From the NCBI GenBank assembly GCA_020054095.1, contig JAGVMA010000004.1, forward strand, positions 1-63,546: 63,546 bases of DNA, read 5' to 3'. Shown here piece by piece: positions 62,587 to 63,546 of the stretch. A program made the position numbers and the translations under genes. Position 1 is the first letter of the stretch. Each line of letters opens with the position of its first letter. This DNA comes from Bacteroidia bacterium (GTDB taxonomy: Bacteria > Bacteroidota > Bacteroidia > JADZBD01). The notes beneath the pieces are model-generated. The model did no database searches. It was given only the letters and a program-made list of their open reading frames with translations, and had not been told where the DNA came from.

Positions 62587-62648
62587 GTACACTTCGGCTA
62601 CGCTCAGTGTACAGTAGGTGCGGCACGCTGAGCGCAGTCGAAGCGTGC
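62587..62648. repeat. REPIN-like 62-bp double-hairpin repeat, copy A
   Basis: Two 26-bp palindromes in inverted order are separated by a 10-bp spacer. Palindrome 1 has stem GTACACT/AGTGTAC around a 12-nt loop; palindrome 2 has stem GCACGCT/AGCGTGC around a 12-nt loop. The second is the reverse complement of the first at 20 of 26 positions. Copy B at 63066-63127 is in the same orientation and identical at 60 of 62 positions. The copies bracket the GIY-YIG gene. Confidence 0.93.
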
Positions 62649-62733
62649 AGTTCGCCAAGTATTAGTAACTGATTACTATTTACTTTAAGATTGTAGTAAA
62701 AAAAATATTTTTTTGAATTTGTAGATTTGTTAT

Positions 62734-63060
62734 GTGAAAGGATACATGTATATATTGCGATGCTCGAATGGAGCATATTATACTGGGAGTACAAAAAATT
62801 TAGAACTGCGTATAACCCAACACAAAAATGGGCAAGGTGCAAATTTTACAAAGAAACATTTGCCGGTAGAATTAGTTTACTACGAGGAATTTCAAAGAAT
62901 TGATGAGGCGTTTTATCGCGAAAAACAGGTACAAGGGTGGAGCAGAGAAAAAAAGGAAGCATTGATAAATGGCACTACTAATTTACTTCATCCGCTATCA
63001 GCTTGTAAAAACGAAACCCACTTTAGCAATTTCAAGAAAAGAAAAAACACTGGCCGCTGA
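62734..63060 (+). CDS. GIY-YIG nuclease family protein (COG2827 type), 108 aa
   Basis: A single-domain GIY-YIG endonuclease. Start GTG at 62734 gives the family N-terminus MKGYMYILRCSNGAYYTGST, where YIL and YTG are the GIY and YIG elements. The Arg-containing helix LELRITQHKNGQGANF and the metal-binding Glu in EAFYREKQVQGWSREKKEA are intact, so catalysis is plausible. A TAGATTTG -7-like element (62722-62729) is just before the start. The stop at 63058-63060 is 5 bp from repeat copy B, and copy A ends 85 bp upstream. No UvrC domains are present. The flanking repeats suggest it acts on them, which is inference. Confidence 0.9.
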   Translation: MKGYMYILRCSNGAYYTGSTKNLELRITQHKNGQGANFTKKHLPVELVYYEEFQRIDEAFYREKQVQGWSREKKEALINGTTNLLHPLSACKNETHFSNFKKRKNTGR

Positions 63061-63065
63061 GTACC

Positions 63066-63127
63066 GTACACTTCGCCTTCGCTCAGTGTACAGTAGGTGC
63101 GGCACGCTGAGCGCAGTCGAAGCGTGC
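63066..63127. repeat. REPIN-like 62-bp double-hairpin repeat, copy B
   Basis: Same architecture as copy A: stem GTACACT/AGTGTAC, 10-bp spacer, stem GCACGCT/AGCGTGC. It differs from copy A at only two bases, both in the loop of the first palindrome (position 11 G to C and position 14 A to T). It starts 5 bp after the stop codon of the GIY-YIG gene. Confidence 0.93.
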
Positions 63128-63418: not shown

Positions 63419-63445
63419 TTTAATTTAGGATTATGCTGAACAGTA

Positions 63446-63546
63446 GTGCAACGATGATGAACAATTGCGCAACGATGGTGAACTGATGTGCAATGAAGGT
63501 GAATTAATGTGCAATGATGATGAACAGTATCGCAACGATGATGAAC
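63446..63546. repeat. 21-bp tandem repeat array, right end of window
   Basis: Four full units (63446-63466, 63467-63487, 63488-63508, 63509-63529) and a 17-bp partial unit reach the window edge. The family is the same as at 1-84, with units mixed in different order. In one forward frame they encode heptapeptides such as RNDGELM and CNDDEQY without a stop; the complementary strand is also open in one frame. Confidence 0.88.

Follow-up and report, generated by a model that had tools for sequence, protein, structure and literature searches.

Single-domain GIY-YIG nuclease genes bracketed by REP-like palindromes: a candidate minimal mobile element in Bacteroidota and Proteobacteria

REPINs are maintained by RAYT (REP-associated tyrosine) transposases. 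The locus described here raised the question of whether a GIY-YIG nuclease can take the place of the RAYT, as was proposed in an earlier note on the same DNA. The window, which is the whole stretch of 63,546 nucleotides that was analysed, carries the GIY-YIG gene near its end, between two 62-bp repeats in the same orientation. The coordinates of the two repeats and of the complete gene were confirmed, with 60/62 identical positions between the copies, a gap of 85 bp from copy 1 to the gene and a gap of 5 bp from the gene to copy 2. Each copy consisted of two 26-bp palindromes, the second of them on the other strand, with a 10-bp spacer between them; each palindrome had a 7-bp stem and a 12-nt loop, as the earlier note had described. 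The features of the locus are as follows.

62587..62648, + strand: left 62-bp repeat, a REPIN-like pair of facing palindromes (62587-62612 and 62623-62648), found by direct-repeat detection
62587..62612, + strand: half-site 1 in '+' orientation, stem GTACACT, core TTCGGCTACGCTCA, which folds as a 7-bp hairpin in DNA
62623..62648, - strand: half-site 2 in '-' orientation, stem GCACGCT, core TTCGACTGCGCTCA, the nearest upstream palindrome of the gene, which fits the family orientation rule
62734..63060, + strand: single-domain GIY-YIG nuclease gene (PF01541), 108 aa, GTG start, with Y6, Y16, R26, H30 and E63 present
63066..63127, + strand: right 62-bp repeat, 60/62 identical to the left repeat, found by direct-repeat detection
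63066..63091, + strand: half-site 3 in '+' orientation, core TTCGCCTTCGCTCA, the nearest downstream palindrome of the gene
63102..63127, - strand: half-site 4 in '-' orientation

The core TTCG[AGC]CTNCGCTCA was common to all four half-sites and the stems around it differed. The palindrome core had 4 matches in the window compared to 0.67 expected, and the CGTC/TGAC tag was absent from all four half-sites. A Pfam profile search matched the window protein to PF01541 (E=2.6e-18) over profile positions 1-76 of 78, and the protein met the criteria of the GIY-YIG nuclease superfamily with the GIY/YIG tyrosines and the catalytic Arg and Glu. The nearest solved structures were the single-domain UPF0213 proteins 1zg2 and 1ywl. 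PADLOC assigned no defence family to the protein and Rfam produced no credible match. At positions 63433-63546 of the window, a 21-bp imperfect tandem repeat of 5.4 copies (consensus ATGATGAACAGTAGTGCAACG) reached the contig end.

The genome of the window (G000) comprises 3.17 Mb in 87 contigs. According to the earlier note, the proposal would fail if the genome held only the two copies at the gene; a search with TTCGRCNN(N)GCTCA found 53 half-sites in G000 compared to 2 for the reversed control pattern, and the dispersed multi-copy palindromes that define CGTC-tagged REPs were thereby present. Stems of the copies read outside the window were different yet self-complementary, and no full-length 62-bp counterpart was found at seven other inspected G000 loci, where the stems differ. 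Repeats bracketed all five single-domain GIY-YIG genes of G000: the palindrome class of the window at two of them, CGTC elements in direct orientation at one (L017) and tRNA sequence at the other two. In addition, five homologues of the window protein (67-74% identity) had related palindromes on one or both sides. The motif was not found near L018, the sole Y1_Tnp gene of the genome.

The association had been suggested to be general, and it was followed across 247 genomes of the same class, whose GIY-YIG genes were ranked by Pfam score with repeats ignored; 93 loci were read. The core was present within 300 bp of the GIY-YIG gene in 34/93 loci, and on both sides in 25 of these, which showed that related genomes do carry the palindromes near such genes. 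Most bins up to 300 bp from the gene had a motif density of 1.3-3.5 per kb, which fell to 0-0.08 per kb at more than 600 bp. Upstream, the nearest copy was in '-' orientation in 24/28 loci, and downstream it was in '+' orientation in 23/31, so the observed bracket is inverted and points outward, and the nearest half-sites of the window follow the same rule. The nearest pair was outward in 16/25 loci compared to an expectation of 25%, and its commonest geometry was inverted and not direct.

A motif-free test, which asked if the two 350-bp flanks share any repeat, was positive at 69/90 loci of this class compared to 0/86 displaced window pairs. The same test on other genes, small genes included, was positive in 5/102 here and in 7/229 for the sample of named genomes described below (3-5%). 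The motif was also enriched at GIY-YIG genes when the comparison was with the remaining intergenic DNA of these loci (OR 18, p=4e-11). A detector restricted to exact-stem CGTC hairpins showed no enrichment in this sample (OR 1.5, p=0.6) because the loops there are 13-14 nt, and the result is therefore carried by the motif and motif-free tests. For UvrC and other long PF01541 paralogues the motif was found in 0/10 loci, and for Y1_Tnp (RAYT/IS200) loci of the same genomes it was found within 300 bp in 0/31. Chance or an intergenic artefact was considered and ruled out by the comparisons with other intergenic DNA, displaced windows and other genes.

Among 110 distinct half-sites with a 14-nt core, Watson-Crick pairing at stem pairs 1-4 was seen in 94, 87, 82 and 71%, compared to 56, 31, 30 and 37% in the shuffled set, and every stem position had several pair types. 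The same covariation was seen at pairs 1-3 of 89 half-sites with a 13-nt core. A GAC tag (TGAC/GTCA in many relatives) was found at a fixed offset on one side in 34/110 and 42/89 half-sites, and on the other side in only 2/110 and 7/89. The covarying stems and the one-sided tag show that the loop is conserved, that the stem varies while it keeps pairing and that the element is directional; the structure is under selection. For the nuclease, catalytic residues Y6, Y16, R26, H30 and E63 (window numbering) were kept in over 90% of the proteins compared (about 173), and two pairs had dN/dS values of 0.14 and 0.06. The active site is intact and under purifying selection. In G186 and G248 the palindrome codes for the last residues of the protein and for its stop codon (the TGA of TGAC), which explains the repeat-derived tails of Bacteroidota GIY-YIG proteins mentioned in the earlier note.

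The G186 unit sits between two conserved genes, and both flanks were resolved in 22 relatives of one genus. Fifteen of these had spacers of 21-214 bp without gene or palindrome, 2 had the gene with palindromes, 4 had a different nuclease gene and 1 had other sequence. Since the spacers were empty of both, palindromes and gene were gained and lost together at this site. Two GIY-YIG copies in unrelated surroundings were found in G203 (81% identical over 456 bp) and again in G125 (86% identical over 488 bp), and in both genomes the homology between the non-allelic copies stopped inside the palindromes at either end. This comparative evidence gives good support to mobility as a unit, with the qualification that no movement was observed and that the compared copies are all old (81-86%). 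A search for close-strain empty sites on plasmids found none at the two loci tried.

Two further arrangements were observed. Tandem arrays of a GIY-YIG gene and repeat were present at G106:C9:906073-910392 and 624695-626357 and at G161:C34:6991-9748, with 10 copies of identical scores at a 457-bp period and others at 379 and about 364 bp. At the G186 site, four relatives (L314, L319, L326 and L327) apparently carry one PD-(D/E)XK nuclease family instead, which was confirmed as PF13366 in L314. The PD-(D/E)XK-like gene of L319, L326 and L327 is bracketed by inverted CACCACTAAGGCACTAAGAACA repeats, and gene and repeats are possibly a parallel repeat-nuclease system.

Outside the Bacteroidota, two of the first five plasmid GIY-YIG loci (Shinella and Novosphingobium pNL2) were bracketed by CGTC-[stem]-CTTGA-[stem] with the tags outside. 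An alignment of such bracketed GIY-YIG proteins was used for a genome-wide scan, which gave 80 named loci, mostly from Alphaproteobacteria; the rest came from Desulfobacterota, Gammaproteobacteria, Omnitrophota and other groups. The sample carries a bias, because the query was picked after its own bracket had been noticed. An exact-stem, GAC-tagged hairpin was present within 300 bp in 36/80 named loci, and tagged-hairpin density within 100 bp was 2.4-2.9 per kb compared to a background of about 0.12 per kb. The intergenic-controlled enrichment was significant (OR 6.4, p=1e-8), the nearest pair was outward in 13/22 loci against the same expectation of 25%, and the motif-free test was positive at 65/79 loci compared to 0/72 displaced windows. 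With repeats shared between the flanks at this frequency in both samples, the suggestion of a general association was borne out. Canonical CGTC REPs bracketed GIY-YIG genes in Shinella, Novosphingobium pNL2, Desulfobacteraceae, Marinagarivorans and others, and the palindromes at GIY-YIG genes of Alpha-, Delta- and Gammaproteobacteria matched the published CGTC-tagged REPs.

The published elements have a stem of 8-9 with AT first, a loop of 4-5 nt and a CCA tail, are mostly head-head dimers with tags outside, and form a superfamily that takes in rickettsial RPE and neisserial dRS3 elements (Di Nocera et al. 2013, PMC3733652). They were reported without a dedicated transposase, and the agent of their spread was left open because no tyrosine transposase gene was found flanked by them (Di Nocera et al. 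2013, PMC3733652). In different Rhizobiales genomes, the GIY-YIG gene flanks one conserved block but is turned one way in L143/L144 and the other way in L151/L152, perhaps by inversion between the bracketing palindromes.

A sister class of GIY-YIG genes was associated with tRNA genes. In 11/93 loci a tRNA gene on the same strand had its 3' end no more than about 100 bp upstream, mostly at 44-50 bp, and in several of the 11 a part of that tRNA was repeated beyond the GIY-YIG gene. The tRNA-adjacent genes, mostly 32-50 bp from the tRNA 3' end, are as follows.

L014 and L015 (same genome as the window)
L106, L115, L116, L098, L122, L120, L107, L123 and L051

The tRNA-type and REP-type nucleases were separate on the tree, with 3 changes compared to 13 expected after shuffling. 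Nuclease lineage thus predicts flank class, as expected if the nuclease determines the flank. Within Bacteroidota, the 13- or 14-nt loop type did not track the nuclease tree (11 changes compared to 11.6 after shuffling).

The earlier note had also expected the repeats to be scarcer in relatives that lack the gene, and this held only in part. Across the 247 genomes, motif excess over the reversed control was correlated with GIY-YIG number (rho 0.34, p=4e-8), the control pattern gave a rho of -0.05, and the partial rho for GIY-YIG was 0.25 given Y1_Tnp number. The p value is optimistic because the genomes are related to one another. Against the expectation, at least 20 motif copies were present in 6/49 genomes with at most one PF01541 hit. 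The complete genome G041 had 256 half-sites with no single-domain GIY-YIG gene and no Y1_Tnp. The MAG G018 had 206 half-sites, in the same '+ ... -' palindrome pairs as the window, and its only PF01541 hit is long (347-aa frame). In the absence of a resident gene, then, palindromes either persist or are able to spread. Nested palindromes, with a GTCATTGCGAGG family around a GTCATCCTGAGC family, were observed in G041 (loci L257-L282).

Overall, the reading that we prefer, with a probability of roughly 0.65, is that REP-GIY-YIG-REP is a minimal mobile element with a nuclease that recognises its ends, with use of host repair and with gene-less derivatives, in which a GIY-YIG enzyme has the role of the RAYT. 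The substitution for RAYT proposed for the window is supported by the outward brackets across phyla, the absence of the motif from the 31 Y1_Tnp loci, the unit-wise presence and the palindrome-bounded copies; that the system is domesticated was not shown. The palindromes would be the ends of a nuclease-encoding unit, as the directly observed presence and absence at the G186 site and the copies in G203 and G125 suggest. Beyond this, the steps are inferred from the anatomy of the units and by analogy with RAYT. The nuclease would most likely recognise the palindromes as hairpins or cruciforms and may nick them at the outer, tag-bearing edge. The unit, or a gene-less pair of ends, would then be cut or copied out and re-established elsewhere through host repair. 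We know of no GIY-YIG enzyme that joins DNA, and integration must on this reading be borrowed from the host. The scattered solitary and paired palindromes would be gene-less derivatives on which the nuclease may act in trans, and in the CGTC-tagged REP superfamily GIY-YIG would fill the role that RAYT has for GTAG REPs.

The main rival, which we regard as unlikely though not negligible, is that the gene is a free-standing homing endonuclease and the palindrome or REPIN its pre-existing target, which is cut, receives the gene by repair and is left duplicated on each side. GIY-YIG is a classical homing fold, there are weak matches to homing-endonuclease models, and both the direct repeats at the window (62-bp), L049, L089 and L136 and the tRNA 3'-end duplications of the sister lineage resemble duplicated targets. 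A pre-existing target is at odds with the 15 orthologous spacers of the G186 site that lack a palindrome, with the palindromes that moved together with the gene in G203 and G125, and with a nearest pair that is most often inverted rather than direct. For the cases with direct repeats, among them the window, homing is still a possible explanation, because the window's own empty site was not found. A second enzyme, a RAYT or IS transposase, might instead move the palindromes with GIY-YIG as a passenger; Y1_Tnp genes are present in 172/247 genomes and their number is weakly correlated with motif excess (partial rho 0.17). This is improbable given that 0/31 Y1_Tnp loci were bracketed and that no tyrosine transposase flanked by CGTC REPs was reported (Di Nocera et al. 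2013, PMC3733652). A passenger would also not be expected to keep a conserved active site and low dN/dS, and the 256 half-sites of G041 occur without any Y1_Tnp. RAYT as the responsible enzyme was rejected on the Y1_Tnp loci and on L018, which has no motif nearby.

Two explanations without mobility of the unit have very little in their favour. REP-like hairpins can terminate transcription or stabilise mRNA and are intergenic, so the palindromes could be terminators, mRNA stabilisers or general intergenic repeats gathering by a small, weakly constrained gene; the enrichment, though, holds against other intergenic DNA and against other genes, small ones included, and the bracket has two sides and an orientation and was duplicated along with the gene. 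Equally slight is the prospect of a host-serving REP-processing enzyme (for repair, cruciform control or regulation) that is encoded near its substrate. The GIY-YIG group includes structure-selective nucleases such as SLX1 and UvrC, and one orthologous site retains the gene in several species of a genus, but the patchy presence and absence, the copies at unrelated sites, the tandem arrays and a broken copy (L331) look selfish.

If the preferred reading of a mobile REP-GIY-YIG unit is true, REP systems had a second, unrelated origin through an enzyme not known to join DNA, and these units are among the smallest autonomous mobile elements. The machinery behind the spread of a large class of short bacterial repeats has not been identified, and GIY-YIG nucleases are strong candidates for it. 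With a nuclease of the right geometry, range and unit-wise mobility, the spread of CGTC REPs becomes testable with one small protein and one oligonucleotide. A wider claim, for which we see even odds, is that the single-domain GIY-YIG genes form a very large class of minimal mobile elements (about 0.4-0.6 kb) that has gone unrecognised and that has two or more kinds of ends or targets, REP palindromes and tRNA 3' ends among them. On this claim, their products would be the dedicated enzymes that the CGTC-REP superfamily has so far lacked in both Bacteroidota and Proteobacteria, and would mobilise gene-less palindromes by the hundred in trans. No literature linking GIY-YIG with REP, RAYT, palindromes or tRNA insertion was found in open-access papers; subscription papers and preprints were outside the scope, and this absence does not by itself establish novelty.

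Compared with known systems, the units resemble REPIN-RAYT systems or REPtrons (Nunvar 2010; Bertels and Rainey 2011) in having short hairpin repeats, solitary or paired and dispersed, that bracket a small nuclease gene, in the tetranucleotide tag by the hairpin and in gene-less copies that outnumber gene copies. They differ in that the enzyme is GIY-YIG (PF01541) and not an HUH Y1 tyrosine transposase (PF01797), in that the hairpin foot has no GTAG tag (TGAC/GTCA in many relatives and none in the window copies), and in that Y1_Tnp genes of the same genomes are unbracketed. The term REPIN used in the earlier note therefore applies only to the layout, in which a short spacer separates two inverted palindromes, because the enzyme criterion fails and the GTAG tag is absent. 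Free-standing GIY-YIG homing endonuclease genes of the phage T4 seg type are likewise small selfish genes in intergenic DNA. However, the present unit has palindromic ends, no intron and no NUMOD or other extra domain seen, and the uninterrupted target expected at an empty site was not met (15/22 spacers, G186 site only). UPF0213 / YhbQ-type proteins are the closest solved homologues and are single-domain, but their entries are hypothetical proteins. REP-GIY-YIG was rated as categorically new, within the limits of the literature scope, because the enzyme criterion of REPIN-RAYT and the empty-site criterion of homing (at G186) both fail. Finally, the window palindromes differ from CGTC-tagged REPs in lacking the CGTC (or TGTC/CCTC) end tag, which is present in relatives and at L017, and in a 7-bp stem and 12-nt loop compared to an 8-9 bp stem and 4-5 nt loop, the latter being met in the Proteobacteria loci; around proteobacterial GIY-YIG genes and beside L017, sequence and polarity are the same as in CGTC-tagged REPs.
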